Positions 7,259-48,780 of a DNA stretch of 64,000 nt are shown piece by piece. The position numbers and the translations under genes were made by a program. The DNA lies in contig OY725490.1 of assembly GCA_963281255.1 (NCBI GenBank), forward strand, positions 930,001-994,000, written 5' to 3'. Numbering within the stretch: position 1 is the stretch's first letter; the number at the start of each line of letters is the position of its first letter. Source of the DNA: Aphrocallistes beatrix. Taxonomy: Eukaryota > Porifera > Hexactinellida > Sceptrulophora > Aphrocallistidae. Below the pieces are notes generated by a model. That model made no database searches and had not been told where the DNA came from. It worked only from the letters and a program-made list of their open reading frames with translations.

Positions 7259-10200
7259 TCACTTTGGCTTTGGACCTGATTTGGATTGGTTTACGAGTTG
7301 ATTCCTAGAAAGAGAATTCATCGGGGTGTAGTACGGGTATGTCTCTTCTCTTGTGCTAGGAGCTGGATCAGCTGATTCATTCCCAGATTGCAGTTTCATT
7401 TTAGTGTAATAAGGATCTTCTTGGCTTAAAGATGACTCAGCTACTCTATCTGATCGGTTTGTCACTTGGGTGTAATATGGATCTTCCTGTGTCGTGGTGA
7501 GAGAAGATTTTGCGAGTTGATTGGCTGGCTGGGCTGCCATGTGAGTGTAGTATGGATCTTGCGACGTTTGAGTGGTAGTCTTGCTCGATACAGAATTGAC
7601 AAATACATAGTCATACTTCTGTTCTGACCTAATTTAAATTGAGTTATTATCTACCCTCGCTGAGAAACGAAAGTCTATCCTGGCCTGCAGTACATACTTC
7701 CTCAATGAGGGCTAGTACCCCTTTAAAAATTATACTTTCTTAGTCTCCTCTGAGATTTAAGTCTGGATCCAAACCTGCTTAGCCTCGAATAATCGCCAAC
7801 CCCAAAGGGTGTAAGGATTTTCTGCTACCCTTTGAGAAAAGTTTTGCTGTAAATTCTTCCCTCCTACCATTTATCGTTCATCGTTTGATTATATTTATTG
7901 AAAAGTCTCTTATAACTGAAAAAGATTAATTTTTCATCTAGGCTAAAAAATTGATAGTCGCCCCGACTACATTCGCGGATAGAAGATCTATCAAGTTTAT
8001 GCGCTGATAGAAACCTTTATATATCTGAAAGATAAAGTTCATATATTTTCAAAAAGTTTTTAACGGTAATATATACTAGGATTAATTCATTAGAATCTAG
8101 GAAGTAACTTTATTTAATCCACCACCAAAATAATAAATAATAATACTTACATTTCAATATTATCCCTATCTGGTAGTTTCTGGTCCTTTGTGTGAGTTTC
8201 TAAATCCATAATAATATAAACATAAATATCGCCAGAATACTATCATTCCCATTATGGTACAAACCTGTTCTCTTTCTCTTCAAAATGCAGCAACAGAGAA
8301 TAATCAAAACAGTTATGATGGAAAGTATAACTAATAAGACAATTGCGCCTCCAATAGCTCCTCCAATGATAGCTACAGAGAAAACAAAGCTGATCAATCC
8401 AATATGAAGTCTCCCAATCATCTAGTGTATGGATACAGTTCCAAGTAATTCTTGTCTCCCAAACCTATGGAAGGGGCTTGCAACAGATGGGCCCCCTCTC
8501 ATACATGCCAACCGTTCCGTTTTTGGCGGGACGTCCCGATTAATAGTACTTTTCTATTGTGTTCCGTTAAGTCCCGTTACGCAAAATACAATGCCGCGTC
8601 CAGCTTTTATCGTGGCTCAAGTTGACATGTATGCCCTCTTTTGGGGCTAGTGAATCATTTGATATCACCAGGCAACGCAAGGTGACTCTACGGACACAAA
8701 GTGTTCGCAAATCTGTGGCAGGGGCGTCGGAAGCAAATTTAAAGTGGGGGGCCGATTCCTAAATTCAAACAAGTTTTAATAAATAATGTTATGATCTTAG
8801 GAAAATAAATAATTGAATAAATCGTTAAATTAAGATCATTCATTACAAATTTTCCAAATATGGATTGACGATGATCTGAGCCTCCAACAAATTCATTCGC
8901 CACTTCAATCAAGCTCAGTTCTATCTTTTAAACTAACGAATTGGGAAGTTATATGAGGATTGAAATTACAAATATATGGATTCTGAATCCTCAGTTGAAT
9001 GTGATGAGTCCAGTAAATTATACAGAAAAGTGTGAATCTAAACACACTGTTCAAAACAAATTGGAAACTAATTAATTGAACGCAGAGTGGTTCTACAACA
9101 GTTTCAGTATGAAAATGTTTTCGACATAGTTGTAATTTATTACACTATTTTGATAGTCCCAAAATAAATGAACAAATAAAAACCAAAAAAAGTGGTGGGG
9201 CCAGAGCCCCTCAAAACCCCCCTGATCTGTGGTACGTTACTCTAGAAGTGTGCTTGTATAAATATAGAACATACCTATAGGTAGTCCTACAGGTGTAGAC
9301 TCTGATATAGCAGTTGTAGTAGCAGTTGTTGTAGCATTTGTACCTGATGAGGTAAATTTCAAATATTTTAAAATCTGATAAATATATTAGAGTGCTTGGT
9401 ATCATACTTCGGAAAAATGGACATTCCATTGCTGCTCCACTGAAAGGTTGGCCACACTGTTGTACTATCATCAAGTTAGCTGTAATGTTAGTCTCTACTC
9501 CATCTAGCTGAGTGAAGTTGTGAGCAGTAATATTTGTTTTGTAACTGAGTTGAGAAGATGGTAGAGTGAATGTAACATTTTCTCTACTTTCAGAGTAGCG
9601 GAGTTGGAGATAATACATAATGTCTAATCCTGATACTCCTGATGGCTGTGTGAGAGTGGTTAATCTCTATAGGAAATATTGCTATATACTCAAAATAGTC
9701 GGTTTATTATAAATGTGGAAGTACCAATTAACTAACTAAACTGAAATCATTTGAAGAATGCCGACAATTTTAAAGGAATATTTTTAAAATTTATGGTGCA
9801 AATCAAGCAATTCTTTCAGAATTGTGCAATAAATTCGCATAAAAAGTATTCAATGGTGATTTGTAAATATCGTCGCACTTCCGCAGTGTTAATATACGAG
9901 TACATACAATAATAATACATGTACGTATATTGCGTATTAATATATATTGTTTAGTATTAAATTCATAAGATCAAACTAACCCAATGAACTGTCAGTTCGC
10001 CATTGATATGGTCAAACACCCAACAAGAACTCATCGTTAGCATGTAGCCTAGACAATTCTAACTGTGATATCAGGAATGTCAGTAGAAAGTCACTAGCAC
10101 AACTGCTATAGAACATAACATGAATTATAGGCGCCAAGTGTGGATACCTGGGGGGCGCCCCTCCCAGGTTTGGAGCCTGTGGGGGGCCGTGGTGCTGGGC

Positions 10201-12192
10201 AATGGAACAGTGGAGGAAGCTGTGGTATGGAAGGACTCCACACAAACTTATAGGTTACAACTAAACCCCAAAATTATGTTAATTGAGTCTAAATAGACAT
10301 CCCAATTACATTTTTCTTCCACTATAGTCTGAGATTTTCTTTTCCTTAGGTAACAACAATAGCTGTATATCGATATTTGAGCATCTAAGATCTAAAAGAT
10401 TATCTGGGGATAAAGCCCCACAGACCCCCCTTACCGTCGCTCACTTCGCTCGCTCTTGGCCCCCCCAGGTTTTATTCTATTTTCCAAAATTTGGCGCCTA
10501 TGATATGCATGAAGCGTCATTTCCATGCATGCCAACTTGAGTCATGATAAAGCGGGACGCAGTGTTGAAATTTGGCGGATCATGGTGGGACGCAATAGAA
10601 AAGTATTTTACATAGAATCCCAAAAGTCGGGACATAATGGGAACATTTCAGATAAAAACGGGACAAAATTAGCACAATCCTTAAATTACCTGGGGTTATT
10701 TCTATTTATAGCAAAGACCCCACACTTCTAAGGTTTCCTCCCCAAATGATTCAATCGGAAATGCGTTAGCAAAATCTAGCGCCATTTTTAATAGAAAAGT
10801 GTAAAAAATCTACTTTCAGCCAAAAACAGGACGGTTGGCAAGCATGCATTTTATGTCCTCTCACAGTCATCCCACATCGAAGAATAAATGTGGTTGGCAT
10901 TGCCTTCATTGCCGTCACAGTTCCTACTCCAGTATATACAGCACACTACAGCAGATCTTAGACTCACCGACCGCAATACTATGAGAAGTTGTAGTAGAGT
11001 TGCCAGCACAACTCATTGCTCGTATTGTGTAGGTAGCGGGGGTGTTGATATTGAAAACAGTAGAGTGAGTGTAATTTGTAGAAGTTAGACTAGCTAACAA
11101 GGATCCATTGAAATACAGAAAATACCTATCTACAGTTCTGTTGCTAGGAGGAGTATTCCATGATAGAGATGTGTTAGCTGAGCAAGTAGCTGTGTTGAAG
11201 TTAGATACAGAGGTTTGTAGACTGGGAGCAGAAGGAGGAGCTAATGATACAACATATTATACATGTTTTCTCCTTCAATTGAATGATATGTTGAATTTAA
11301 GAGCTCATAATATTATGACATAGATGTGTAATTTATTTTTGATTAATGAAAATTGTTATTTCAACGAATTATTTGTTTACATATAAACATAATTATATTG
11401 AATACTAGTTCCTATCTACTGAAGTTTCAAGCGTGAAAATAAAATAGTGGAAAAACCAGGGGTAATGAAAATGGTATAGTGGGATAAGCCTACTGGAAAT
11501 TCTCTAATAGCAAATCTACCTATCACAAGTGAACATAGGACAGTATAGGATATATACAATGCGCCAAGAGACAATAAAGTATCACCACAGTAGAACCTCC
11601 ATACTCCCACATTCATTTACTTTCCCAACAGGTGTTGAATTATCCAGGTTCCACTGTCTGACTAATTCGATATAATGAAATGCTATCAACCTACCTGCCT
11701 GTCGTATTCTTAGAGTTTCATTCAACATCATCAAATTAGACAAACTCCCATTCACAGCATAAAGAACTGTGCACCCCAGACGAAGATTATTATCGGAGAT
11801 GTTGAATGGAACGAGAAAGAGAGATCCTGATATAAAGGTGGCATTCCCAATCGGTGCAAGAGCTCTCAATCGAGATAAGTCCACTCCATTAACTATACTA
11901 TTACTGTTAACTGTTGCTAGGGAAATGGGATTGTCTGATTCTCCGACTGTGAAATTTATAGTTGATCCTGTAAACACATCTCCTGGATTTGGTGGAGTTA
12001 GAGCACAGTTAACACGTGCATCTTCTCCCACACATGCAAATGCTGGGATCTGTACCACTGTACCTAGAAGACGGAAGATATCAATAACTCATTCAGAGAT
12101 ATGGCATGATATCTCTTACCTTGTATATGATTGATCTGATTGGTTAGAATCAGTAGAGAGAGAATAGATAAATGAAAGGACTGTAGAATCAT
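7259..12192 (-). CDS. IgFN-A: Ig/FN3 receptor with four YYTx(M/V) tail motifs
   Basis: Nine exons read by eye: 12120-12192, 11695-12063, 10968-11240, 9981-10048, 9408-9666, 9275-9343, 8265-8372, 8151-8199 and 7259-7628. All use GT/AG sites and phases agree, giving 545 residues. Order: signal peptide (MILQSFHLSILSLLI); Ig-like domain with cysteines in FACVGED, VNC and RLGC; FN3 (WNTPPSNRTVDRY); a short exon ending LTVHW; FN3-like domain; Thr-rich stalk; one membrane segment rich in Ile and Gly, followed by CCCILKRKR; and a cytosolic tail. The tail repeats DPYYTHM, DPYYTQV, DPYYTKM and YPYYTPM. Three of these fit YxxM, the known docking motif for PI3-kinase p85 SH2 domains. It is a single-pass type I surface receptor, last gene in a tandem cluster; ligand unknown. 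The exon model is solid in phase but untested by transcripts. Confidence 0.82.
8501..8637. repeat. CATxCxTGCCAAC inverted-repeat element (MITE)
   Basis: Starts CATACATGCCAACCG and ends in the inverse (GTTGACATGTATG), with GGGACGTCCCG internally. Related copies lie at 10519-10848 and 35026-35606. It sits in the intron just upstream of the IgFN-A transmembrane exon. Confidence 0.55.
8719..9224. mobile_element. Non-autonomous hAT-like element with 8-bp target duplication
   Basis: The element starts CAGGGGCGTCGG and ends CCCCCCTG. It is flanked by a perfect direct repeat ATCTGTGG at 8711-8718 and 9225-9232. Eight-base duplications and CAGGGG/CCCCTG-type ends are typical of the hAT superfamily. 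At 506 bp with no reading frame it must have been mobilised in trans. It lies in the IgFN-A intron between the stalk and transmembrane exons. Confidence 0.8.
10126..10506. repeat. Foldback element with TAGGCGCCAA ends
   Basis: Ends match in inverse: TATAGGCGCCAA at about 10126 and TTGGCGCCTAT at about 10491-10502. The interior is unusually GC-rich for this window (GGGGGGCGCCCC, later CCCCCCTTACCGTCGC). No coding frame was found, and no clear target duplication could be identified. It lies in the intron between the FN3 exon and the short linker exon of IgFN-A. Confidence 0.6.
10519..10848. repeat. CATxCxTGCCAAC inverted-repeat element, second copy
   Basis: Starts near CATGCATGCCAACTT and ends GGACGGTTGGCAAGCATGCA, the inverse of the start. 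Internal GCGGGACGCAG and GTCGGGACATAATGGGA resemble the copy at 35026-35606. It has no coding capacity and is intronic in IgFN-A. Confidence 0.6.
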
Positions 12193-13635
12193 ATGTGCTA
12201 AGAATGTATATACGTATTATTAATTATGATAAAGGTGCTGGATTTTAGTAGATATAAATAAGCAGATTGTTGAGAGAGAGAAACAAACCATTATCAATAA
12301 TTCCACTATTGAATATAATGATAAAGTGCATCTAGTTACTATAGTAATATAAGAACCCAATTCGAATGCATAAATACAATCTCAGGGTAGCATATACGTC
12401 CTAATTCACTTGAGTAGGCTCCAAACTGTATTCTGACCAATAGTATGTAGTATTAGTTACATTCAGTATGTCCTGTGCAATCAAGAGTTGATGAAGCAGT
12501 TCTCTCATCATTTTCATTATTTCAATAAGCATTCAAACTGATTGCAGCAAATTAAATTTATAATTTATGTAAAAGACCGATTAGACCATATAGTTCTCAG
12601 TAAACTCAATGTTTGTTTTGTCTATTTTAGCTCTATCCTGTAGTACATTAGTACCTGATTGTAAGAGAGTTGCAGAAGATGTGATGTTATTACTGAATAA
12701 ATAATAGATAGGAGTCTGATCGGTTTCATCTCATCTATACTGAGATACATAACCAACTGTATTAGATCTAAAATCATTACACAATCTTCATCAATTTTAA
12801 AAGTGAAGATTCATATTAGCTTCTTGTGTGTAGAATTTGTGGACAATTCCACATGCAATTCCATTGGTTGATGTATCCAGAAAACTGTTAATTAAGTAGA
12901 TTTTGAGTAACGCTTTTAAATAATGCATACCACTGGTCAAACAACAAAATTAATCAATTTTGTTGCTAAAAAAATTATAATCACCAACCCTATACTAAGA
13001 GTAAGTACTATGCTTTGCAATCTTCAAACAAAAACCTACCGCATGCAATGATACTTTGAATCACTCCTCGATTGTAGAAGATGGGGTTATTTGATTGAAA
13101 TACCATGCTAAGATGCAACCATTGGAAAGAGAGCACTGAACTGAAATAAAATAATTTTTTCTCACTTTTTAAACTAATCATGATTTCTATCAATATTGAA
13201 ACTTAATTATTTATATCACATTTTTGCTGTCTTACACTCAATAAAAAAGAAAACATAATAAATTAAATTGTCGAGGGAAAATCAGCAGTGCATGTCCAGG
13301 AAATTGACTGTGATAATTTGGTTTAGTATGGAGTAGTAATAAGAATACTACATACTTTCTAACGCAAATAACTATCGTTAATCAGTTATGTTTACCCCGT
13401 TTCCACTACAAAACTTACTGAACTAAAAAATCGATGTATCACTGAAATTGATTATAAATACACTGATAATTTTGAATGAATATAATACTAACAACAAATT
13501 CAAAGAAATTAAGTGAAAGATAATATCTCGTTAGCAAGTGAGTATGATACTATAAATATACATATATATATTCAACCTAAGAATATAGAACACAAAATAT
13601 AAGTGGAGAATTCTCCCAAACAGTTTTGAATAATA
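12193..13635. other. Spacer between IgFN-A and IgFN-B
   Basis: No exon of the receptor family could be found on the minus strand, in particular no transmembrane or tail exon that could serve IgFN-B. About 13320-13680 is similar to about 19700-20060 and, in its right half, about 27050-27310, so it is the shared 3' flank of the B, C and E loci. The rest is AT-rich and unassigned. Confidence 0.5.
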
Positions 13636-13679: not shown

Positions 13680-15933
13680 TCCTGTTGAAATAGAAGATAA
13701 TTATATATTAGTATACTTGTTCTCAGTAAATAGTTGTACTATACACGTAATTATATCAGGATCCAATTATAGTAGTAGTATTATCATATTCATATTTCTA
13801 ACATGGTTAACTGTATCCTTTGTTGGTCCGCTTTTTTCCCGCGACCTAAGAGTAAGAAATCCCAAGCGGACCCCTTAGTATACCTGGCATATATTGAAAC
13901 AAAACTTAAGAATTTATTATCAGTATTCCATGCAAAATTTGCAAATATTAGTAAATAATTATTGGTGTGTAATTACTAATTTGCGACGCAATAAGTTATA
14001 ATACTCCTAATTGGCTTGTAATAGCAGTATCAGTGGATTTGTTTTACAGAGAATTATTAATAATATACAGGAAATAAGAAATAAAAATTTATGTCAACAG
14101 AGTCAGTCAAGAAATCCTATTTTACAAGCGCATTTAAAGATAATTTTTAAAAACATTAATTTAGAACCATTAATTTTATTTGTAGAAAATGACAAGTAGA
14201 AACATTAATTTTATACATAGAAAATCAGAAATATTAATTTTATACAAATTAATAATAAATGTGTTTGTTATGTGATAGAACACAAGTGCTCTTCGGAATT
14301 CGGCGGAAATGGAGCATACATTTGCTGTGCATCAAAGCAAGCAAAACTTGTGAAGGAACATATATCATGATGTGTGACTTTTATGAAGTAATAATACAAT
14401 TAATAGCAACATACAATATCCGATGAAACATTGAATTCCTGTTCCACTGAATGGCTGTCCACACTTTTGTATTATTGTCAGGTTAGCTGCGATTTTAGTC
14501 ACTGATCCTGGCCGAGCAGTTAGATCTGTACTGTAACTGTAACTGTAACTGTATCTGTAACTGGAACTGGAACTGTATCTGGAACTGTATCTGGAACTGG
14601 AACTGGAACTGTATCGAGAAGATGGTAGAGTGAAGTTAATACTGTCAGTGTATGTGTATGTTACATATTGTCTATTGTGAGAGTAGAGGAGTTGGAGAGA
14701 ATAGGTAATGTATAATCCATTTACTGATGGGTGTTTGAGTGAGTGCAATTCCTAAGTGTAAAGTTTTAAGAACAATATTTTATATAGAACTTTCTCGCCT
14801 AAAATATACTATACCACCGTGCTACGCTTGCTTGCGTAGTATACTGCATACAAAATCGTTCTACGCGTCCCTGGGGATATTAAAAAAAACGGTTCATTGC
14901 TTTCTAATTCTCTAAATGCCATTTATCTACGGTTAATCATAAATTCAGAACTGAGAAAGAAAATTATATGAATTTGGTTTGTTTTCCATTTTTTGCAGAG
15001 GTGTGAAAAATTTTACTCAACATTTGTTTGCGTCCATTTTAGTGTTAATTAATTAATAATATATATATATATATTATTAATAATTATTAATAATATTGTG
15101 TAGCGTTTATTTATTCCGATTTATAGTAATCAATTAACTAATTAATTCAATCATTAATGCATCATAATGACGTTTCCATATAATCAAAGTAAAATAAGAA
15201 GGATCGAAACGATTAGTCAATATCCTGTGGAATGACCTATTGATAAACATACAACATGAATAGATATAAATCCAGTTTTAACAGTGCAGATTCTTACAAA
15301 GAAGAACTCACCCAATAAACTGTAAGTCTCCCATTTCTATAATCATACTCAAGACAACGATAATTGTTCCACAGTGTTAAGCCTAAATAAATGCATATGA
15401 TATAAATATGAAGAAACTTAAATGAGATCCGATCTTGACTCACTTTCAGCAATATTAACAATAACATTGCTAGAGCTGGTAGTAGAGTTACCAGCACAAC
15501 TCATAGCTGTTACAGAGTACTGATAGTCAGTGTTGATATTCAGAATAGTGGAGTGGTTGTAACTGTTAGAATTAGTAGTAGCTAGTGGAGATCCATCAAG
15601 ATACAGGAAATATCTATCTACAGTTCTGTTGCTAGGAGGAGTATTCCATGAAAGAGATATGTCAGCTGAGCAAGTAGATCCGTTTAGGTTATATACAGAG
15701 ATCTGTAGACTGGGAGCGGAAGGAACTAAGGGATGCAAAACAACCAATAACCAACACTCAGCAGTTTTAAATACTCATTGAATATTCTTATAGTAACAAT
15801 TAACTACGTATGTCCTTGCATCTACGGAGTACCTAGTTATTTAGTAGCAAATACTACAACATTAATACCCATCGAATACATTTGTTAAAATATCCTTACT
15901 ACAAAAACTCGATGAATGTATAAATAAATATTT

Positions 15934-15970
<37 letters not shown>

Positions 15971-18294
15971 ACAGGGTATCTGTAAAATCAGGGTAATTGT
16001 AATTACCCTGATTTTTTTAGGGTAATTGTAATTACCCTGGTTCAATCAGGGTAATTGTAATTACCCTGACTTTTTCAGGGTAATTGTAATTACCCTGACT
16101 TTTTTCAGGGTAATTGTAATTACCCTGACTTTTTTCAGGGTAATTGTAATTACTTTGTTTTTTTAGGTTAATTATAGTGACCACTCATTGTATAGTGGAT
16201 CATTTGTATAGGCGCTACTTGGGCCATTTTCACATGTCCATCCAGATTTGCTCAGCCTGTAATACACAAGTACGGGAAACACAATTTAGCTCACCTAAGA
16301 GCAATTGTCCAATTAATAGGATTCCTCAATTGACAGTTGCATTGTAACAGGTAACATTGCCCACCCTGAATTTNNNNNNNNNNNNNNNNNNNNNNNNNNN
16401 NNNNNNNNNNNNNNNNNNNNNNNNNNNNNNNNNNNNNNNNNNNNNNNNNNNNNNNNNNNNNNNNNNNNNNNNNNNNNNNNNNNNNNNNNNNNNNNNNNNN
16501 NNNNNNNNNNNNNNNNNNNNNNNNNNNNNNNNNNNNNNNNNNNNNNNNNNNNNNNNNNNNNNNNNNNNNNNNNATATATATATATAGTTGATCATTAAAA
16601 AGAAGAGATCACGACCCCAGTAATTACTAAAATAATCTACGATCCAATTCCAATCCATTCACAGATCTTTATTCGATATGTAGCAATATAAATAAATGAG
16701 TTCCTTGTTCCAAAAGAAGAAAATTTATGGGAATACAAACCCTAAGATAATTAATTCTATAGGGCTTTTTTTCAACGAATTTGAATTGAAGACAAAATGC
16801 ACTTTAAATAATAAAGAGTTTTTCTATAGATATAGGAATTAGACTGATAAAATGAACATGCACGTAGAGTAATTCACCAGCTACTTTTTCATTCAACCGT
16901 CCGGATGCAAGAGCTGAGGTCAAGGAATAGTTAGAAAACTCTCCATGACATCCAAATAGAGTTTCAGAGTCAGAAAACTGATAACTCTTTATGATGAGTC
17001 TAATCCCTGGTCTGCTCATGCTGATACCCAGTCCATCTACATTAGCACTGTAACGAGATAAGTCGATGCCATTCACTACTGCTTTTGAGTTAAGAGCACT
17101 GATCGTAAAAGGAAATGAAGAGTTAAAAGAAACTAGTGTCTCAGGTACCCTATACTGTACAGAAGTATCCAGATAGCATTCCATCTCAACTTGATCTCCA
17201 ATGCAGAGCGGTGCATCATTATGAGAGAATGTGATAGTACCTAGAGAAACAATGCTTTTTAATAATAATAGAATGGATAAAACAATAAATTAAGAAAAAC
17301 TATCGGTCAAAATACCGATAGTGCAGTCCTAGTAAGTGTGTTGAGGATTGGAGAGGTATGTTAATACATTAATAAATACTGCCTTCCCCACCTATAATGA
17401 CTTTACAGAAATAACTTGAATATATACAGGGTGATCCATTAAGTTCTGCAGCAAATTTTGCTGAAGTATTATACTTACACAAGTAGATCTAACATCCGAC
17501 ATTTTGTTTTACTTGAAAATTCTAAGGATTATTTGAAATATTTTGCAATCCAATTGCCTGTATTTCTGAATATAGTAGCTAAAGTGGATCATAAATGTTT
17601 GTGTGTTTAGAAAAAAGAGAAAAATCAAAAGAAAAAATCTCGAATGCTATATACATTCTATGATCATACTTTAAAATTGTTGTTCTTATTGGTGATTTCC
17701 CGTCTATAAACTAAAAGAAATAATCCTATTTTAGTATTTTGAATTAATAACTGACTGTAGGAACATATAAATATATTTAATCAGGAGAAAAAAATTTTTC
17801 GAACTTGACATTTTTGAGATCAGATTATTGGAGTCCCGGGTATATAATATCTCAAAAATTTGTTTTTAAAATATTTAGCGCAATAAATAGTGTTCATTTT
17901 TAAACTAGAAAGGTGGTAGATTCCATAGATGAAATTTGCAAACCGATTAAACTAAATTATCTTAGTCCAATCAATGAAGCAAAATTTATTGTTGCAGAAC
18001 TTATGGATCACCCTATATGGTAAACCTATGGTAGAATAACCGCAAGGTAATTATGTATAGATAATCCAAGGGATAGGTGCAAATCTCCCCATAGTTATAC
18101 ACAGTTATACACAAAAATCATCTCTTAAACTTGCTAAGAGAAGAATTACGGACAGGCGGATAATAATAAAACTGTAAATATAAATTTAATAGTTGAAATG
18201 AGTTTCGTCACTTACCTGCATGCGAGAGATTAACAAATTGTGTGAAGATAAGTATCACATAGAACAAACATCGGAAAAGTGATTCTAGCATCAT
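13680..18294 (-). CDS. IgFN-B: Ig/FN3 protein without visible membrane exon
   Basis: Exons: 18216-18294 (signal peptide, LFRCLFYVILIFTQFV), 16878-17240 (Ig-like, subtype with CIGDQVEMEC), 15444-15725 (FN3, NTPPSNRTVDRYFLYLDG), 15312-15382 (short exon ending LTVYW) and 14415-14751 (FN3-like). Phases agree throughout. The last donor (GTATGTTGC) leaves one T; joining to an acceptor at 13681 gives T+GA, an immediate stop, with an AATAAA at 13636-13641. That would make a secreted protein of about 377 residues. Alternatively the intron is retained and a short hydrophobic tail (MLLLIVLLL) follows. The FN3-like exon contains an in-frame Ser/Tyr microsatellite. A 200-N gap lies in the intron between Ig and FN3, so a missing exon there cannot be excluded. 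Confidence 0.65.
14530..14615. repeat. Coding hexanucleotide microsatellite in IgFN-B
   Basis: On the plus strand, repeated AACTGT/AACTGG units encode on the minus strand a Ser/Tyr/Arg run (SSSSSRYSSRYS, then YSYSYSYS). The array is in frame and sits where paralogues have a short loop (PSSQLSYNT). Copy number would change the extracellular loop length without shifting frame. Confidence 0.8.
15988..16168. repeat. Palindromic minisatellite, about six 28-30 bp units
   Basis: Each unit contains CAGGGTAATTGTAATTACCC, with 10-base arms CAGGGTAATT and AATTACCCTG separated by GT, then a T-rich spacer (ACTTTTTT). About six copies start near 15989, 16019, 16047, 16077, 16107 and 16137; the last is degraded. 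It lies in the IgFN-B intron, next to a TA-dinucleotide run at about 15937-15966 and 200 bases from the assembly gap. Confidence 0.85.
16374..16573. other. Assembly gap (200 N)
   Basis: Exactly 200 unresolved bases, so probably a default gap size and not a measured one. It is bounded on the right by a TA run. It falls in the intron between the Ig and FN3 exons of IgFN-B. Confidence 0.95.
17427..18014. mobile_element. Mariner-like MITE, about 590 bp
   Basis: Left end CAGGGTGATCCATTAAGTTC and right end the inverse (GAACTTATGGATCACCCTA), with further pairing inward (GCAAATTTTGCT against AGCAAAATTTATTG). Flanks are TA-rich (TATA before, TATA after), consistent with a TA target site. No transposase frame. 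It is inserted in the first intron of IgFN-B. Confidence 0.75.
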
Positions 18295-39133: not shown

Positions 39134-40048
39134 TCTGGAGAATATCAAACCAACATTGAAGTTGAAAATAGGATGCCAGCACTTTTAAATACAAGCTAAG
39201 TTTATCAAGAATATAATATATAATTATTCTTTAAATGGCGCTAGACTTTTGCTAACTCATTTCCGGTTAAGCATCCCACCTACAGTTCAGATTTAGCCCC
39301 ATGCGACTTATTTATGTTCCCAACTGTTAAAGAAAAGCTCCGTGAGATAAAGTTTGATAGTCCGGACGACTGGCAATTGAAGAAGCCCTTACACCATACC
39401 ATGGCATAACTCTTTCGATAGTTGGTTTTATCGTATTAATCTTATGGATAATATTTTGAAAAGCAATGAAAATTTGAATTAGGTGTGTGTAATAGTTTTT
39501 CGTACGACAAAACTTTTGGACTGACCCTCGGACCCTTGTAAAAATCGGAATTTATAGAATTTCGTGAAAATATTGACAGAGCACATCAGCACATATATGA
39601 ATACATATTACATACATACGTCGTCCTTACAATATACGCATTTTCACATATGAACTACAATTGGAACTCAAACTTAGCTTAACTATATACAGTACAAGTA
39701 TTATATTGGACTAATCGCTGTAATCGATACACATCGATCATATATCACCAAGGGAACAAATTAAGAGGAACATTTTATTCAAAGTATTTTGATTAATTAA
39801 CATGTGATAACTACTGAAATTGATACAGAGTATACTGCTAGGAAGATAAAGCACATGATATTCATAAACGGAGAAATTCATGCATTTGGATGAAATAGAA
39901 GAATAAAAATGGTATCATATCGGTAGTACAGCTCCAAAAAAAATAACAATATTGCCAAAAGCAGAAAACATAGTGTTATTTATATAATATATTGATATTA
40001 TGCCATTACTACACATACATAACACAGTTTCTTGAGTTAATTTGAGGA
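39134..40048. other. Spacer upstream of IgFN-F
   Basis: Promoter region of IgFN-F followed by a mariner transposase remnant (39258-39420). No other gene recognised. Confidence 0.45.
39258..39420 (+). pseudogene. Mariner transposase fragment
   Basis: One frame reads HPTYSSDLAPCDLFMFP, followed by a KEKLR motif. This matches the well-known mariner transposase C-terminal signature HPPYSPDLAPxDxxLF, which includes the third catalytic acidic residue. Upstream catalytic parts are absent and the frame soon breaks. The downstream TTTTGGACTGACCCTCG resembles the end of mariner elements. Confidence 0.75.
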
Positions 40049-40168
40049 GATACCTATTAATAGGGATGTTGCTAGGAGGAGTATTCCATGATAGAGATAT
40101 GTCAGCTGAGCAAGTAGTTGTGTTGAAGTTACATACAGAGCTCTGTAGACTGGGAGCAGAAAGAGGAG
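40049..40168 (-). pseudogene. Truncated FN3 exon below IgFN-G
   Basis: First about 40 codons of an FN3 domain (CSADISLSWNTPPSNIPINR) with acceptor at 40168. Flanking sequence matches 24745-24800 and 19016-19080. It has no link to a downstream exon and appears to be non-functional. Confidence 0.65.
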
Positions 40169-40829
40169 CTAGGGAATATAGGATGCGAACTGTCAGTTTA
40201 TAAAATTTGATTTATAGTAATAAAATGTCAAAATACATTAACTCATAGCCTACAATATAGACAGCTATGCAACCCACCGAATACAAGGCCAAAATAGAAG
40301 ACCAGTTTTAACACAGTCAAAATTTAATTAAACTGAGAAATCAAAAGCCGCATACGATAGACCTTTGAAATGTATTATTACCATATACAAATATTATATC
40401 AGAGGATCCAATTCAGGTGTCAAAAATTCGATTTGTCATCATGTTATTGCGTAGGCTCTTTTTAGAGCGGAAAATGCTATTGTTCTACCTCATTTAAAAC
40501 ATCGCTATCTGCATTTTTAACGCTTGATTTTTTTATAGAACAACAATCGAAAGTCCTTAATCCAAAAAATTTTGAAAATGTTCAAAAAATTCAAGCTGAT
40601 TTGCTACATAGATAATATACATTTTATTAAACCAATGAATTAGATGATGATCTTTATAATGCTGAACTAAGATAATACACTAAGAAAAATATTCAATTTT
40701 AATTTGAAAATAATACAATCCTCGACGTGAATATTACTACAATGATGGAAAGATATAGAAACCTAAACATACACTAAAATAGCTTATTAAAATCAATTAA
40801 TATATATGTTCTATATCAGTCATATACCA

Positions 40830-43276
40830 TCACTTCAAGTTAGCATAGAAAGCAGTAGGTTTAGTGCTATCTTGCTTTTGCACAGAACTCATAGGAACAT
40901 AATCCTGAGGAGATTGTTGTTGAGTAGGAGTGCTGATGTTACCACCAATCTTATCTAGATCTATGTACTCGTAAGGATGAGATGGAGCTGGTTTAACAGT
41001 TAATGCTGAGTTCAAATGTTCTACCTTTCTTGTCAAATATATAATGACAACTAACAATATTACAATGATAATAACTGCAATAAACAAGAGAAGTCCAATT
41101 ATAACAATTGCGATAAGTAGTGGTGATGAGGAGATCATTGTAGGTATAGCTAAAAGTGAGAAGAAATGTAAAAAGGTTGACCTGAAACAAATAATATTGA
41201 GTTTATAACTTACCTGATATCGCTACATTCCCAGTGGTGGTAAATGTTATAACTGAAGTAGGACGTAGGGTAGTAGATGAAGAATTCGAAACAGTAGAAA
41301 ATATTGTAGGAGGGAGAACGGTAGGAACTGGAGGTGTAGTTACTAGAGGCATTGTATCATATAAGATTTAATTAAAAGAGTAAATAATATACAAAAACCT
41401 CACTTGAACTAACGGAGCAGCATATTTCTGTATTGGATGGTTGTCCACACTGTTCATTGATCCTCAAACAAGCTACTATGCTAGTCTCCACATCTGCTGC
41501 ACATATGAAGCTATGAGGAGCTATAGACTGAGTGTAAGTTTGTGCATTCGAAGAGAGGAGAGAGAAATTTGCAATATTATTAATAGTATTGATGCGAATA
41601 TTTCCTTGAGAATGTGAGTAGTTATAGCGGAGAGAATACTGGATGAGAAGTGGAGTGGATTCAGCGGATAAACCCTGAATGAATTGTAGATTAATTAAGG
41701 AGTTCCAATCGAAGTGCACCCATAGTTTAAAATAATTAAGAATTTCAGATCAATACATAAGTCTCAATATAATGCAGTTATCTTGTTACCAATACATTAA
41801 TGCAGCCCCGAACCCTGTGGACCGCCTGATGTCTTCCGTGGACCACTAAGGGGTCCAGAGAGCTTACGTTGGGAACCACTGCATTAAAGCTTTGAGCTTT
41901 TTGCATAACTCACCCAATTTAGTGTAAACATGTCAGTGACATTATTGAGGCCGAGACAGGCTGAATTTGGGGATGTATCAACGAGAGAATAACCTAAAAA
42001 AGGGTTTTTTAAATCAATAATATATGAATTTATCTATAATTTGAACTGACTCACTCCTAGGGTTGAGATAGGAAGTGGTTGCAGTAGAGTTTCCAGCACA
42101 GCTGCTAGCATGGACAGAGTATGCATAGACTGTACCGAGGAGTAGATCAGTGTTGTGAGAGTATGAGTTAGCAGGTGCTGATATGCTCTCTAGTGCTGTT
42201 CCGTTCTGTAGAGACAAGTAATAGAGATCTACAGTTCTGTCTGTGGAAGAGGGAGGAATCCAGTTCAGTGAGACTGTAGCAGAGCAAGTGCTAGGATCTA
42301 TGTTGGATGAGATGGACAGCATAGATGGTGGAGAAGGAGGAGCTGTGGAAATAAAGCATTTTAAACTTTTTAGAAAGGGAGTGTCATTCAATGACCTAGA
42401 CATTTTTAAAATGCATTATTCAAAATCAAACCATCTCTTTGACACTCAAGATTAAGTTTTACATTTGGTCTCACTGATGAAAATGTGTTATAAGGTATTT
42501 ATATACTACACATTAATAGCACTAGTAAATAACAACAAACCTGCTGATACTAATAGAGTTGTTTCTCTAGTAATATCAGTAGGATCAGTATTACCGCTAA
42601 GATAGTAAATAGCAGCACACCCAAGACGTATACCAGCATCAGAAGCTGTGTAAGAAGAGAGAGTTATGCTTCCATGTATGACCTTATCATTACTGAAACT
42701 GTTATTAGCAAAAGCAGTCAGTCTAGTCAGATCCACACCTCCATATTCTTGTGTAAGAGTATTGACAGAAGAATCTGAAATGGAAAGATCAGAACTGCCG
42801 ACTATAAATCTAATGAAATTAGTTCGGAAATTGTTGTTTGGATCTGGAACAGAGAGGCTGCACTCTACAGTGATCTGCTCTCCTACACAGGCGTGAGATG
42901 GAATCTGAGTCACTGTACCTGTGAAGTGAGCATATTTAATGATAATCTAGGAATCTCCAGCTTCAAGACTATCAAATTAGTCATTAGAATGTGTTCTTAT
43001 GTTTCAAAATGAATAGCTACAGGTGACTCCGCTTAATCGGGACACTTTGGTCCAGATTAACCGATGAAATTTAGTATTATCTTCTATGTATCGGAAGAAC
43101 CATTTCATTCCTGGAGACTTGTCCCAATTAAGCGGTTGTCCCAATTAACCGGTGTCCTTCTTAGGCGCAGTTGACTGTATAAGTTTTTTAAATGCTTAAA
43201 TTTGAATATCTAGATACTTACAGTTAATATTTTCTATTAGAATTATCCAAAACATGAAGAGGCTCCATAGAATCAT
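40830..43276 (-). CDS. IgFN-G: Ig/FN3 receptor with YANLK tail
   Basis: Exons: 43222-43276 (signal peptide, MILWSLFMFWIILIENIN), 42541-42918 (Ig-like, HACVGEQITVEC, IRLGC), 42055-42342 (FN3, SSTDRTVDLYYLSLQNG), 41914-41993 (short exon), 41404-41674 (FN3-like), 41214-41342 (Ser/Thr stalk) and 40830-41149 (membrane segment plus tail). Phases agree; 506 residues, no break. The tail contains HPYEYIDLDKIGGNISTP and ends FYANLK. The back half is close to IgFN-F, but the Ig and signal exons are of the IgFN-C type, so the gene is a mosaic of two lineages. A pogo-like MITE sits in the first intron where IgFN-C has an empty site. Confidence 0.82.
41803..41881. repeat. Small hAT-like MITE
   Basis: Ends CAGCCCCGAACC and GTTGGGAACCACTG, the latter the familiar CAGTGGTTCCCAAC hAT end in inverse. 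Flanked by CATTAATG (41795-41802) and CATTAAAG (41882-41889), an 8-bp duplication with one mismatch. Intronic in IgFN-G. Confidence 0.7.
43018..43178. repeat. Pogo-like MITE with an empty-site counterpart
   Basis: CAGGTGACTCCGCTTAATCG at one end and GCGCAGTTGACTG at the other, TA at both borders. In IgFN-C the same intron position (about 23060-23080) lacks it, while flanks match on both sides. The insertion therefore post-dates the C/G duplication of this segment. Confidence 0.75.
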
Positions 43277-43869
43277 CTCAAGGCTAACAGAATCAGATTA
43301 ACTTGCTTTGTATAGTAATACAATATCTCTACCAAAACTTTACTATTTTAGTCTCAATTTTAATCTCAGTATTTTTATGCCATGAGTGTGTGTATAATAC
43401 TAATCTAATAATAATCTGAGATATTCAGTATCACATTTTCAAGTGAGTGCCACACCAACACAAAGTGCTAGAAACCTAAACCAGCTGTAATAATCGAAAT
43501 CACTCTGACTTTCAGAATCGAGAAAAAATGAACAAGAATTTAACACGTTTAAGTTGTAACAGCTCTGTTCTGAATTTCACTAAAACTATCATTGAACGTA
43601 ACCCTAGAGTATAGATTGGAGTATGGATATGTTTAGTGCCTACTTCCATTACTGTATCAGATAACTTAGGTATATATTTCACTACGTGCAACTATACAAT
43701 TATGCCATATTTGGGATTTTGATCATCTGCTTGATGGATTATTTCCTACAAGAGCTAACCATATGTAATATTAGACGATAAAGAGATTGTTGGTAGAAAC
43801 TAGACTCATTAAATATGTTTTATATATGGCTGAATGAGGGGATATATTATAGACTAAATAATAAGCATT
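43277..43869. other. Upstream region of IgFN-G
   Basis: About 400 bases are similar to 23172-23700 upstream of IgFN-C, so the putative promoter was duplicated with the gene. No exon recognised. Confidence 0.45.
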
Positions 43870-45105
43870 TTTGGATAACCTATTTCAATTCCCTCCTCAA
43901 GGGGGTGCTCTGTGGCATTATGAGGAGAATGGGCATTTTGGTTAACCTTTTTCATTTCCACCTTCCCAAGGGGGTGCCCTGTGGCATTATGAGGAGAATG
44001 GGCATTTTGGATAACATTTTTCAATTCCCCCCACACCAAGGGGGTGCTCTGTGGCATTATGAGGAGAATGGGCATTTTGGTTAACCTTTTTCATTTCCAC
44101 CTTCCCAAGGGGGTGCCCTGTGGCATTATGAGGAGAATGGGCATTTTGGTTAACCTTTTTCATTTCCACCTTCCCAAGGGGGTGCCCTGTGGCATTATGA
44201 GGAGAATTGTCATTTTGGTTAACCTTTTTCATTTCCCCCCACACCAAGGGGGTGCTCTGTGGCATTATGAGGAGAATGGGCATTTTGGTTAACCTTTTTC
44301 AATTCCACCCTCCCAAGGGGAGTGCTCTGTGGCATTATGAGGAGAATGGGCATTTTGGATAGCCGTTTTCATTTCCCCCCACACCAAGGGGGTGCTCTGT
44401 GGCATTATGTGGAGAATGGGCATTTTGGTTAACCTTTTTCAATTCCACCCTCCCAAGGGGGGTGCTCTGTGGCATTATGTGGAGAATGGGCATTTGGATA
44501 GCCGTTTTCATATCCCCCCACATCAAGGGGGTGCTTTGTGGCATTATGTGGAGAATGGGCATTTTGGATAGCTTTTTTCAATTCCCCCCACACCAAGGGG
44601 GTGCTCTGTGGCATTATGAGGAGAATGGGCATTTTGGTTAACCTTTTTCAATTCCACCTTCCCAAGGGGGTGCTTTGTGGCATTATGTGGACAATGGGCA
44701 TTTTGGATAGCCGTTTTCATTTCCCCCCACACCATGCATGTGCTCTGTGGCATTATGAGGAGAACGGGCATTTTGGTTAACCTTTTTCAATTCCACCCCC
44801 TCCAAGGCGGTGCTTTGTGGCATTATGTGGAGAATGGGAATTTTTGATTGCCGTTTTCATTTCCCCCCACACCAAGGGGTTTCTATGTGGCATTATGAGG
44901 AGAATGGGCATTTTAGTTTACTTTTTCAATTTCCCCCACCAAGGGGTGCACTCCTTGGCATAATGAAGACAATTGGGTTTTTGTATAACCTTTTACAATT
45001 CCCCCCACACCAAAGTTGCGCTCTGTGGCATTATGACGAGAATGGGCATTTTGGATACCCTTTTTCAATTCCCCCCACATCAAGGGAGTGCTCTGTGACA
45101 TTATT
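43870..45105. repeat. 69-70 bp minisatellite, about 17 copies
   Basis: Consensus modules: AAGGGGGTGCTCTGTGGCAT, TATGAGGAGAATGGGCATTT, TGGTTAACCTTTTTCA, TTCCCCCCACACC. The GGCATT landmark recurs at 43914, 43983, 44053, 44122, 44191, 44261, 44331, 44401 and 44471, then onward. Divergence rises at the right end. The 69-bp period leaves frames open on both strands, which explains several spurious frames here. It lies between IgFN-G and IgFN-H. Confidence 0.9.
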
Positions 45106-45404
45106 CTGGAAACTATTATCGACGGCTATTACTCTGTATAATTACGTGTGGTGCTCACCTTTTAGCTTCCCCTTTTATCTTTGTTAATCCTTGTTTCTCA
45201 TTGTCTCTAGTCTCAGTGATGTATATCTGTTCTGTTTTTTTTAATTCTCTGAATTCATTTGTCACGCTTTTTAATGCTTGTCACTTATTGTTGCGGCATT
45301 ATTAATTTTGACTCTATCGCTTGTTGTGTCACATTTTATTGAGATTTGTTCCCACGCTCCTTTGTTATCCAGTCTATTTGTTTCTTTGGAACGCTGAAAA
45401 TTTG

Positions 45405-45755
45405 TTGATTTGTTTGGGATTCGAACCCGCGTCACTTTGCTATCGACTCAGTGCGGTAATCACTCGGCCATGAAGTCCCACGTCTTTAAAATGTTCTAAA
45501 ATTATATTTATGTTTGTTACTATGGAACACTGAAAAATTGTTGACTAGCTTGGGATTCGAACCTGCGTCACTTTGTTATCAACTCAGTGCGCTAACCACT
45601 CGGCCATGAAGTCCCACGTCTTTAAAATGTTCTAAAGTTATATTTATGTTTGTTACTATGGAATACTGAAAAAATTGTTGACTAGCTTGGGATTCGAACC
45701 TGCGTCACTTTGATATAGACTCAGTGCGCTAACCACTCGGCCACGAAGTCCCACG
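45405..45755 (-). repeat. Three tandem tRNA-like units, about 135 bp period
   Basis: On the minus strand each unit reads TGGGACTTC, ATGGCCGAGTG(A/G)TTA, then GTTCGAATCCCAA, with A-box-like and B-box-like sequence in tRNA order. Copies lie at about 45415-45483, 45550-45617 and 45685-45752. The anticodon arm is poor and the 3' acceptor does not pair with the 5' end, so these look like tRNA-derived (SINE) heads and not functional tRNA genes. Confidence 0.65.
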
Positions 45756-46543
45756 TCTTTAGAATGTTTAAAAATTATATTTATGTTTGTATTTTCAATT
45801 CTTCGATATTTGTGTCAAATTTGTTTGTGATATATGTATTTGTATATGATGTGAAATTTTTTAATATGATCTAAAGTGTGTTAATTTCTCTTTCTACTTC
45901 AAGGTATGTTTTGTTTCACTTTTACCACAGTTTGAGTTTCCTATTATTCTCTTCTGTAAACGCATTATTTACTGTCCAATTCCAAAAATTACTCCGTACA
46001 ATAATTTTAGCGAATCAGGCTCGTAAGATCTTTAGGAGGCACAGGTATGTGATCACACAGTTACAATAGTACAAGGAACTTATAATTAGCTTCCAAATAA
46101 TTTCAATAATTGTGCGTATGTGAATTCCACAATTATTTTAGGGACTACTCATTCTAGTTTATAAGAGTAACTTCCAAAGAGAATGCCAGCAGGTAGAGTA
46201 TAACTAAAACAGAACACTGATTACACACGACTACTGCACTATATAAATCCCGGCAATGACCTGTGGTCCATTCTATTTATAGTATGGATCCCGACTAATC
46301 TCTGCAATCAATACACATTGATCATATACTTGTATAATCAATGAACAAACTACGAGAAACTTTGTATTCAAAACATTTTAATGAAATAACTAAGAGTACA
46401 GAAATACGTAGATACAGAGTATCATGTGTTGAGTGTAGATATATTCATTAATATAAATTCATAAAATAAGTAATTGTTATTGATATTATATATTGATATT
46501 ATTAAGCTATTACTAAACATAATTTACTTTTCCGAGTAAAATT
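45756..46543. other. Spacer downstream of IgFN-H
   Basis: No recognised gene or repeat beyond AT-rich sequence. CGACTAATCTCTGCAATC at about 46290 resembles about 39715 (ACTAATCGCTGTAATCG) with the following ACACATTGATCATATA, so this flank is shared with the region between IgFN-F and IgFN-G. Confidence 0.4.
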
Positions 46544-48780
46544 TCACTTCAAGTTAGCATACTCAGGTTGGGGGCTAGCTTGTCTGTGTTCAGGACTCGT
46601 AGAAACATAATCCCGAGGAGGTTGTGGTTGAATAGGAGAGCTGATGCTGCCACTCAGTGTATCTAGATCTATGCACTCGTATTGAGATTGTGAGGGTTTA
46701 GATAGAGTTTTTGATTGTTTCTTCCGTTTTATTAAGAAAATAATAACTGCTACTAGTACAGCAATCACAATCAAAGCGATCAAGAAGAGAAGACCGAATA
46801 ACACAGAAGTAATAATGCCTTGTGAGGATGTACCTATTAATAATATGCGAGTAGAACTCAGAAATTTGAATAAACAAAGTACAGTCAGGGTTGCTTATTA
46901 TGAACACCTTGGGGACCAAAAAGTATGTTCATAATAGAGAGACTTCATATTAAGCGAACTCGACCTAATACAAATCCTATGGAACCTGTTGAATTGGGAC
47001 CACCAGAGAGTTAGTTCATAATAAACGAATGTTCATAATAAGCAAACCTGGCTGTATACATAATGTGCAGCCCTTTCAATAGAGGATAAATGGCTCATAG
47101 ATGTATGTAATTCACTCACTAGTAGTTCTATTGGTTGAGGTAGTTGTAGTATTGGGAAATGTTGTTGTATTGGTTGTGGTATTAATAGTGTGACTAGGTG
47201 AAGTAGTAGGTGGGATTAGAACTAAAAATATTCATCTACTAAAACCTTGAATAATATACAATATTACTTGATGAGTCCATAACATACTTGAAGTATAGGG
47301 ACGGCATATCTCAGTAGTACTGGAGTAAGGCTGTCCACACTGGTGAGTTATCTTCAAACAAGCTGTTATGTTAGTGTAAATGCTATCAGTTGTAGAGAAG
47401 TTATGAGGAGTAATGGACTGAGTGTAGCTTGTTATAAAGGAGAGTAGAGTGAAAGTAGAAAGTTGTCTGAAAGAAATGGAACTATCTCCCTGAGTATAAA
47501 CTATGTCTAGCCTCATTGAGTACTGTAAGAGGAGTCTGTAAGGCAGTGCATTCAAATTCTGCAACAGTAAAGATGGAGATTATAAAGGATGAATGAGAAT
47601 CATTAAAGATGCTCTGAGAACAAACTAACCCAATGCATCGTGATTAAACTAACTCCATTGTGTCTGAGAGAAGATAATGAAATAGGTACTGAGAGTATAT
47701 AACCTAAAAGACCATTATTCAAAGTCTAAGTTATCTAACATAAATAGAGAATATAAACAAATCACACATACCTGGATAGCGCATCACCAAACTAGATCTA
47801 TTAGAGTTCCCAGCACAGCTGCTAGCAGAGATAGAGTAAGTATAGATTCTGCCGAGGAGTAGATCAGTGTTGTGAGAGTATGAGTTAGCAGGTGCTGATA
47901 TGCTCACTGGTACTGTTCCGTTCTGTAGAGACAAGTAATAGAGATCTACAGTTCTGTCTGTGGAAGAGGGAGGAATCCAGTTCAGTGAGACTGTAGCAGA
48001 GCAAGTGCTAGGATCTATGTTGGATGATGAGATAGACAGCATAGATGGTGCAGAAGGAGGAGCTGTAGAAATGAAAAAGGAGCTGTGGAGATGATAAAAT
48101 GCATTCAACTATCTCTTAGATTCAAGATCAAGTTATAGACTTAGACTCACTAATGAAAATGGGTCAAAAGTTAGTATTAATACACAACACATTAATTGTA
48201 ATATGAATAGAAATAACAAACCTGCTGATATTAATAGAGTTGTTTGTCTAATAATACCAGGAATACCAGAATTACCGCTAAGATAGTAAACACTAGAACA
48301 CCCAAGACGTATACCAGCATCAGAAGCTGTGTAAGAAGAGAGAGTTATGCTTCCAAGTATGATCTTATCATCACTGAAACTGTCATCAGCAAAAGCAGTC
48401 AGTCTAGTCAGATCTACTCCTCCATGGAAACCTGTACCAATGTTAACTTGAGCATCTGAAAGGGGAACAATGCTACTCCCGACAATGAAATCAATGAGAT
48501 TAGTTCGGAAATTGTTATTGCTTGGATCTGGAACAGACAATTCACACTCAACAGTAATGTCTTCTCCTACACAGGCGTATGACGGAAACTGAGTCACCGT
48601 ACCTATAAACATATTTCACGATAATCTAGATATAAATAGCTTCAAGATTATCAAATTAGTCATTAAATTGTGCTCTGTAAAAGTTATTTTTCAATTGCAT
48701 ACATTTGAAATCTAGATTCTTACCGTTAATATTTTGTATCAGAAATATCCACAATATGAAGAGATTGCATAAAATCTCAT
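46544..48780 (-). CDS. IgFN-H: Ig/FN3 receptor with YANLK tail, signal exon broken
   Basis: Exons: 48724-48780 (signal), 48222-48602 (Ig-like, YACVGEDITVEC, IRLGC), 47772-48062 (FN3), 47630-47703 (short exon), 47288-47558 (FN3-like), 47120-47221 (Thr-rich stalk with several NxT sites) and 46544-46833 (membrane segment, KRKKQSK, tail). From the Ig exon on, phases agree and no stop occurs. The tail has YECIDLDTLSGSISSP and ends PEYANLK. The signal exon has two extra bases relative to IgFN-G, so its ATG runs into TGA, while the frame that fits the splice (LFILWIFLIQNIN) lacks an ATG. Either the gene is newly inactivated, another first exon is used, or this is a sequence error. Confidence 0.68.
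46884..47056. repeat. Pogo-like MITE, third family
   Basis: CAGTCAGGGTTGCTTATTAT at one end and AATAAGCAAACCTGGCTGTA at the other, with GTTCATAATA modules in both orientations. TA borders. It lies in the IgFN-H intron between stalk and membrane exons. Confidence 0.65.

Follow-up and report, generated by a model that had tools for sequence, protein, structure and literature searches.

A megabase-scale cluster of Ig-like/FN3 receptor genes with divergent heads and near-identical stems in the glass sponge Aphrocallistes beatrix, a candidate recognition locus

The stretch of DNA analysed here (the window, 64,000 nucleotides of contig OY725490.1 of Aphrocallistes beatrix, C3:930001-994000 in our contig numbering) contains eight related loci, A to H, all on the minus strand between window positions 7259 and 48787, which we examined as a possible recognition-receptor gene cluster. 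The contig C3 accounts for 7.0 of the 100.5 Mb of this 28-contig genome. Stop-to-stop open reading frames (ORFs) of at least 25 amino acids were compared all against all by BLASTP inside the window and clustered at E<=1e-6, giving five recurring minus-strand exon classes: two immunoglobulin (Ig)-like classes, a fibronectin type III class (FN3a), a second FN3-like class (FN3b), and a transmembrane (TM)/tail class. The presence of the eight loci, all in a single orientation, is well above chance, and their exons lie as follows, in window coordinates.

46544-48787, minus strand: locus A; signal-like exon 48724-48775 (without in-frame ATG), Ig type 1 48222-48602, FN3a 47772-48062, linker 47630-47703, FN3b 47288-47558, TM and tail 46544-46833 (YECIDLD, YVST, YANLK end)
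40830-43276, minus strand: locus B, complete 463-aa model; signal peptide 43222-43276, Ig type 1 42541-42918, FN3a 42055-42342, linker 41914-41993, FN3b 41404-41674, TM and tail 40830-41149 (YEYIDLD, YVPM, YANLK end)
36102-39133, minus strand: locus C, complete 462-aa model; signal peptide 39064-39133, Ig type 2 38640-38999, FN3a 37936-38223, linker 37762-37841, FN3b 37312-37582, TM and tail 36102-36421 (YEYIEID, YANLK end; the YxxM tyrosine missing)
27264-33676, minus strand: locus D, 450-aa predicted secreted model; signal peptide 33607-33676, Ig type 2 33165-33530, two FN3a 30410-30688 and 30049-30330, linker 29909-29979, FN3b 28139-28421, stop exon from 27309 down, with the TGA formed at the junction
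24573-26018, minus strand: locus E, rearranged pseudogene; frameshifted signal exon, truncated Ig type 2 25653-25901, B/C-type FN3b 25271-25591, truncated FN3a 24573-24788 out of order
20002-23171, minus strand: locus F, 356-aa predicted secreted model, mosaic; signal peptide 23117-23171, Ig type 1 22596-22973 (B-like), FN3a 22194-22475 (D-like), linker 22058-22128, FN3b 21303-21585 (D-like), stop exon from 20052 down
19334-19622, minus strand: degraded B-like TM and tail exon downstream of F, carrying a 2-bp insertion that its paralogues do not have and a shortened TM segment
13629-18291, minus strand: locus G, 376-aa predicted secreted model; signal peptide 18216-18291, Ig type 2 16878-17240, FN3a 15444-15725, linker 15312-15382, FN3b 14415-14751 (containing an array of 24-bp repeats), stop exon from 13681 down
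7259-12192, minus strand: locus H, complete 522-aa model; signal peptide 12120-12192, Ig type 1 11695-12063, FN3a 10968-11240, linker 9981-10048, FN3b 9408-9666, TM 8265-8372, mini exon 8151-8199, tail 7259-7628 with YYTHM, YYTQV, YYTKM and YYTPM

The exon order common to these loci is signal, Ig-like, FN3a, short linker, and FN3b, with conserved GT-AG sites. DNA alignment of the copies places the signal-Ig, Ig-FN3a, FN3a-linker, and FN3b-TM junctions in phase 1 and the linker-FN3b junction in phase 0, directly after a conserved Trp; these alignments and further reads agree on conserved acceptors and donors whose phases match between copies. Seven loci yield open spliced models of 356 to 522 aa (A 452, B 463, C 462, D 450, F 356, G 376, H 522), the signal exon of A having no in-frame ATG where B and F carry one. 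The original prediction of eight related loci that share these exons in one orientation is upheld by the BLASTP clusters, the concordant splice sites and phases, and the seven open models, as is its tally of four loci with a membrane segment and tyrosine motifs (A, B, C, H), three without a membrane segment (D, F, G), and one pseudogene (E). Its separate linker unit does exist as an exon; by comparison with both homologous proteins from another glass sponge, Oopsacas minuta, it is the opening portion of that second FN3-like unit, because this stretch and FN3b are contiguous in both of them and the Trp at the splice point is invariant in eight of eight sequences. Chance ORFs as the source of the loci are ruled out by the open spliced models, dN/dS values below 1, and the Oopsacas homologues.

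Two repeat features lie within or beside the loci. A 24-bp tandem repeat (14526-14613) lies in frame inside the FN3b exon of G and adds a Ser/Tyr/Arg-rich stretch, and two inverted elements 80% alike occupy the linker-FN3b intron of D (29372-29891) and the region just upstream of D (33839-34369).

The cluster had been placed at 7259-48780, where the loci do lie, but it does not end at the window. Contig C3 holds 76 of the 88 genome matches to Ig type 1 (Ig1), 16 of 18 to Ig type 2 (Ig2), all 76 to FN3b, 28 of 31 to the B-type tail, and all six to the H-type tail. After merging of near matches, 89 Ig-exon sites remain on C3 (47 minus, 42 plus), eight of them in the window; 88 fall between 0.71 and 1.83 Mb (1.12 Mb) and the remaining one at 0.52 Mb. 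The matches are often ordered Ig, FN3b, tail on the same strand, and a distant copy at C3 1040.1-1042.6 kb, when read through, runs from Ig through FN3a, linker, and FN3b to TM-tail. Internal stops occur in three of 88 Ig1 matches and three of 76 FN3b matches. The window loci are a small part of a cluster of about 1.1 Mb with roughly ninety receptor-gene sites, some broken, the count being one of exon sites rather than of gene models, with one gene read through outside the window.

A stretch of 8954 bases that contains three Ig exons occurs twice, at C3:1686501-1695454 and, inverted and at 99.989% identity, at C4:2024301-2033254, and is either a very recent copy or an assembly or haplotype effect. 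It would favor the view that alternative haplotypes or collapsed copies inflate the cluster as a whole. We regard that as very improbable: the Ig exons of 13 genes (median identity 29%) differ far beyond what alleles would, the introns flanking FN3b have no common 12-mer in 169 of 190 pairs, and the eight window loci are distinct.

The striking element is the contrast between head and stem within the same genes. It was measured in 13 genes for which an Ig and an FN3b exon could be paired by order and strand, ten of them having an Ig1-like and three an Ig2 head; the Ig exons labelled 1031, 1230, and 1251, clipped at the locus end, were kept at their available length. Pairs of Ig exons have a median identity of 29%, a value lowered by the mixing of Ig1-like and Ig2 heads, and a median synonymous divergence (dS) of 2.02 with saturated pairs counted high, whereas FN3b pairs from the same genes are 92% identical with a dS of 0.09, which lies below that of Ig in 77 of 78 pairs, although the FN3b copies are the top matches of a D-type query and their similarity is biased upward. 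FN3a is also alike between genes (median dS 0.13 in 13 genes, those long enough among 17 of 20 loci with a match). Simple recent duplication of whole genes is ruled out by the two dS medians, and strong protein constraint as the sole cause of the FN3b identity by an FN3b dN/dS of 0.35 at a mean dS of 0.10.

The likeness of the stems stops at the exon ends. FN3b exon DNA is 96% identical (median of 25 sampled pairs), the 200-nt flanks have a median at the shuffled baseline with single pairs up to 96%, and identity drops within about 15 to 20 nt of the exon ends. The 12-mers missing from the 169 pairs mentioned above were sought in 235 nt of either flank, and two copies half a megabase apart (L052 and L055) have 92% of their exon 12-mers in common but no 12-mer in the flanks. 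The pattern extends to TM-tail exons (31 of 45 pairs) and partly to Ig1 exons (34 of 66). At least in part it reflects how this genome behaves in general: in a control FN3 family on contig C6, unrelated to the receptors, 7 of 10 pairs from five exons are without shared 12-mers in either flank, four exons are 79% to 88% identical in protein to the fifth, and the flanking introns are mostly unrelated, which rules out that exon-bounded identity is unique to the C3 locus. Locus F is a mosaic, its Ig exon being 88.7% like B, its FN3a and FN3b each 91% like D, and its TM exon 80% like B; together with the divergent Ig exons this agrees with the fast turnover that had been proposed.

The C6 FN3 exon array itself (L083) spans about 0.78 to 1.47 Mb and has no evident tie to the Ig/FN3 receptor family.

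The genes end in two ways. In A, B, and C a single exon encodes the membrane segment and the tail, and in H the membrane segment and the tail have an exon each, with one of 49 nt between them; the TM segment of B contains no charged residue. Loci D, F, and G have a common downstream acceptor, CAACAG followed directly by GAATACTG, and because the last base of FN3b is T, joining to this shared exon forms TGA at once. On this predicted splice junction, D, F, and G would be soluble, secreted forms. Among 20 FN3b loci, each viewed 1.5 kb past the exon, the acceptor element was found only at D and F and therefore looks local. That three loci end without a membrane segment thus stands, with the stop exon added and with the refinement that F also keeps the degraded TM exon listed above, whose frame is lost ahead of the YVPM and YANLK motifs. 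Neither of the genome tail searches (B-type and H-type) returned a TM-tail match at D or G. A hydropathy scan found short hydrophobic frames, among them some after G (12940-13023 and 12223-12381, at 2.54) and after D (27088-27180, at 2.13) that are unlike the known TM-tail exons, and an overlooked TM exon for D or G is rejected only in part on these grounds.

A survey of ten B-type tails (including B and C) and six H-type tails (including H) revealed a consistent set of tyrosine motifs. The B-type tails carry YxYI(D/E)xD in 9 of 10, YxxM in 9 of 10 (C is without the tyrosine), and a C-terminal YANLK in all ten, and every H-type tail has two or three YxxM. YxxM is a docking motif for the SH2 domains of p85-type PI3K and YxN for Grb2-type adaptors, and the tails fit PI3K/Grb2 docking by motif. 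Single ITIM-pattern stretches (immunoreceptor tyrosine-based inhibitory motif) occur in locus A (SQYECI) and at the membrane edge of an Oopsacas protein (P0001; IMYRKI). The genome contains 62 SH2 matches, and a Pfam profile search placed two p85-like arrangements among them.

C12:2710325-2711449: p85-like SH2-iSH2-SH2 arrangement
C2:796661-799625: p85-like SH2-iSH2-SH2 arrangement

YxxM tails and p85-like genes thus occur in the same genome. This combination, together with many divergent heads on conserved stems and tails and the predicted soluble forms, would suit innate immune receptors of an opsonin or phagocytic type that sense pathogens or symbionts and drive uptake through PI3K. We consider that specific role possible, although short of probable; homogenised stems would also be compatible with adhesion proteins.

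The only relatives found are proteins of Oopsacas minuta (Hexactinellida), in keeping with the sponge-type source that had been suggested. A protein search with the spliced B model (8000 candidates scored) gave one match, P0001, named 'Chitin binding protein'; a search with the Ig part of P0001 (499 candidates) added P0002 (LOD99_12534), and a stem-and-tail search (1226 candidates) returned P0001 alone and no further homologue, these two relatives being all that was found at limited search sensitivity. Both have the Ig-FN3(n)-FN3b order of the window loci, with three and four FN3 copies ahead of FN3b, in contrast to one or two in the window. P0001 reads as Ig, three FN3, FN3b, TM, and tail. 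Its TM-tail is 39% identical to that of B with all three tyrosine motifs in common (YQYIDMD, YTPM, and a C-terminal YGNLK), and in its model, unlike the window loci, some 110 additional residues precede the signal-like part. P0002 has no tail and finishes with hydrophobic residues. The original prediction did not recognize a described gene family here, and the PubMed Central titles and abstract openings listed by literature searches likewise name no such Ig/FN3 receptor family, the subscription literature lying mostly outside that scope. The Aphrocallistes genome paper describes tandem clusters, one with AIG1 domains, and its main text mentions neither 'immunoglobulin' nor 'fibronectin' (PMC10282587). 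The Oopsacas genome paper (PMC10280926) and a perspective on allorecognition (PMC12018476) are further literature on the subject.

The domain labels of the original prediction hold to different degrees in profile searches. For FN3a the assignment is secure by way of the Oopsacas homologues, which score 45.3 and 52.6 bits against the Pfam fn3 cut-off of 25; the two window FN3a exons tried reach 23.8 and 22 bits, just under it. Neither of two FN3b exons tried had a Pfam match, the spliced FN3b domain had no significant PDB match, and its FN3-like label is, like that of the Ig head, below threshold. Ig-superfamily domains have an Ig fold with a B-F disulphide and a D-x-G...C motif. Three Cys and an SD pair are invariant in all 26 aligned Ig exons, and the best PDB profile match of the head is the Ig protein JAML (E=0.015), none being above threshold; of the 53 PDB matches at E<=10, 50 bear the name of an Ig protein, in a database rich in antibodies. 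No Pfam match to Calx-beta or sushi was obtained in the ten window exons tried, nor to Calx-beta in the two Oopsacas homologues.

Selection was estimated from 14 of 20 Ig1, 12 of 18 Ig2, 20 of 20 FN3b, and 10 of 10 tail loci (from 88, 18, 76, and 31 matches, respectively), with one Ig1 pair without usable dS excluded (90 of 91 usable). Median pairwise dN/dS is 0.63 for Ig1 (90 pairs), 0.36 for Ig2 (66), 0.35 for FN3b (190), and 0.42 for the tail (45), which indicates purifying selection on all four exon types. In 12 of the 14 Ig1 exons, windowed pN/pS, calculated from pairs that are not independent, exceeds 1 in 4 of 23 windows, namely codons 81-95 (1.03) and three windows in 101-125 (1.26-1.80), with the peak of 1.80 at alignment codons 106-120, after the last conserved Cys, and a value of 0.92 at 36-50. 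Maximum-likelihood (ML) omega for the same 12 exons is 0.63 as a whole; by region it is 0.86 for the final 24 codons, 0.80 for a middle block, and 0.45 for the rest. The amino-acid variation thus clusters in two blocks, where an Ig fold would place loops. Overall positive selection is ruled out by the pairwise dN/dS and by omega below 1, and the proposed dN/dS above 1, looked at between paralogues, is not seen as a whole (ML omega 0.63, maximum 0.86).

Median dN/dS values of 0.35 to 0.63 are in favor of ordinary cell-adhesion or morphogenesis proteins that were duplicated in tandem and whose diversity drifts under relaxed constraint. FN3-rich stretches are also common in this genome (C1, C4, C6, C8, C12, and C19), and the exon-bounded similarity is shared with C6. 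Such proteins are a rather doubtful account of the locus in view of the three tyrosine motifs conserved from Oopsacas to the window, the three neighboring predicted soluble variants, and Ig exons saturated at synonymous sites on near-identical stems.

Judged from sequence, the best explanation appears to be a fast-evolving cluster of recognition receptors, immune or self/non-self, with PI3K/adaptor signaling, to which we assign a probability of roughly 60%. Of the recognition locus originally proposed, the multigene family of Ig-like/FN3 type I receptors, its mix of signaling, predicted secreted, and dead members, and the fast turnover are retained, and recognition is the function we infer. 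A number of results weigh against this explanation. Pairs with dN>dS are rare (Ig1 2/90, Ig2 0/66, FN3b 7/190, tail 1/45) and ML omega is below 1 in every Ig1 region. Pfam Ig stays sub-threshold in the 26 Ig exons (Ig_2 in 2/26, best E=0.21), whose best weak Pfam matches are not even Ig, and the 150 fn3 matches that score best in the genome (of 773 candidates) all lie off C3. ITIM, ITAM (the activation motif), hemITAM, and ITSM (the switch motif) patterns are found in 0/10 B-type and 0/6 H-type tails, by which canonical ITIM/ITAM signaling is ruled out, and the iSH2 matches of the p85-like loci lie below the Pfam cut-off. Exon-bounded likeness is no signature of recognition because the unrelated C6 family shows it. 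The query bias and mixed head types behind the head-stem figures, the counting of sites rather than genes, the predicted junction on which the soluble forms depend, and the hydrophobic frames downstream of D and G count on the same side.

If the cluster does encode recognition receptors, an intact gene product would begin with a signal peptide, followed by a single divergent Ig-like head, a stem of one or two FN3 domains, and the second FN3-like domain, and would end either in a membrane segment with a tyrosine tail or, in D, F, and G, in a stop that yields a soluble form. The head may bind a surface ligand, microbial or self/non-self, upon which an intracellular kinase would phosphorylate the tail; YxxM would recruit p85-type PI3K, YxN could recruit Grb2-type adaptors, and YxYIDxD possibly another SH2 protein, with PI3K-driven cytoskeletal, uptake, or contact responses as the output and with soluble forms acting as decoys or opsonins. 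Stem exons would be homogenised from gene to gene, exon by exon, possibly by conversion, while the Ig heads diverge, so that new head-tail combinations would arise. A far more specific scheme, which we hold to be a long shot, is a histocompatibility complex of the glass sponge in the form of a combinatorial archive, in which exon-confined conversion (possibly through cDNA) would keep the stem exons near-identical, Ig heads would be exchanged between three-tyrosine, multi-YxxM, and soluble endings in the germ line and perhaps even somatically, and PI3K rather than ITAM/ITIM signaling would decide whether two syncytia join. As regards the recognition-receptor cluster proper, it offers a clear case of near-identical stem exons beneath diverging heads in the same genes, and a defined 1.1-Mb interval is now open to graft and infection experiments.

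Other features of the window include three remnants of family exons.

49317-49460 (about 49.4 kb), minus strand: FN3b remnant upstream of A, with one internal stop by genome search
39918-40211 (about 40.1 kb), minus strand: FN3a remnant in the B-C interval
18974-19087 (about 19.0 kb), minus strand: FN3a remnant in the F-G interval

Between A and B, about 18 copies of a 70-bp tandem repeat (43869-45104) adjoin an array of three 136-bp units (45377-45790). Upstream of A lie an open frame with NHL repeats (50839-51735, plus strand) and a Gypsy-like long terminal repeat retrotransposon (51929-56167, minus strand) with CCHC, protease, reverse transcriptase, RNase H, and integrase ORFs, which is a recent insertion because its 194-bp terminal repeats are 99% alike. 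Two long ORF blocks on the minus strand (1640-2799 and 4855-5979), 71% alike in DNA over 713 bases and with no Pfam match, are a second tandem gene pair beside the cluster. A tRNA scan with the bacterial code found no tRNA.

Among known systems, CD28/ICOS/DAP10-type tails use YxxM to dock the SH2 domains of p85, and this motif is all they have in common with the C3 family, in which a C-terminal YxNLK and YxYIDxD are extra. In the vertebrate leukocyte receptor complex, inhibitory KIR and LILR members carry a canonical ITIM, whereas none is present in the 16 C3-family tails (one pattern occurs in locus A), and the C3 family has FN3 stems. As far as KIR and LILR were compared, signaling and soluble Ig receptors (LILRA3 is soluble) stand side by side there, as signaling and predicted soluble ones do in the C3 cluster. 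The resemblance to paired receptors drawn originally keeps its mix of signaling, predicted soluble, and dead members, and is an analogy only because the tails are of YxxM/YxN type rather than canonical ITIM/ITAM. Aggregation factors contain Calx-beta domains, to which the ten window exons and the Oopsacas homologues gave no match. The demosponge aggregation factor is described as a candidate sponge self/non-self system, and the same account states that there is no conservation between the proteins put forward for allorecognition in sponges, in cnidarians, and in ascidians (PMC12065747).

The Botryllus fuhc locus (fuhc-sec/fuhc-tm and the fester family), about 800 kb according to its description, combines soluble and membrane Ig proteins and tyrosine-motif receptors (PMC12065747), as the C3 cluster is predicted to do. 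The fester co-receptors are described with a V-Ig, sushi, and two C2-Ig domains and with ITIM/hemITAM, whereas the C3 family has Ig-like and FN3 domains, YxxM/YxN tails, and no sushi match in ten exons. Hydractinia Alr1, Alr2, and the Alr-like genes are described as clustered single-pass Ig-superfamily genes with probable pseudogenes (PMC11067881), the Alr candidates having ITAM/ITIM-type motifs (PMC12065747). Compared by description only, this cnidarian family has its clustering and TM segments in common with the C3 family, differing in its ITAM/ITIM-type tails, which none of the 16 C3-family tails resembles; the Ig fold of the C3-family head is sub-threshold. A large Ig receptor cluster in a single interval with signaling and dead members, as in Hydractinia, a mix of soluble and membrane forms, as in Botryllus, and Ig heads that diverge on stems that do not would all speak for a glass-sponge histocompatibility complex that gates tissue fusion, its heads binding themselves or each other across the contact. 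This role seems unlikely, with paralogue dN/dS not above 1, tails that differ from ITAM/ITIM, and no glass-sponge allorecognition gene in the PubMed Central titles or abstract openings listed by searches aimed at it. If the C3 cluster is a glass-sponge receptor family, large Ig receptor complexes would be represented in a sponge as well as in cnidarians and tunicates, here with an output of PI3K/adaptor rather than ITAM/ITIM type.

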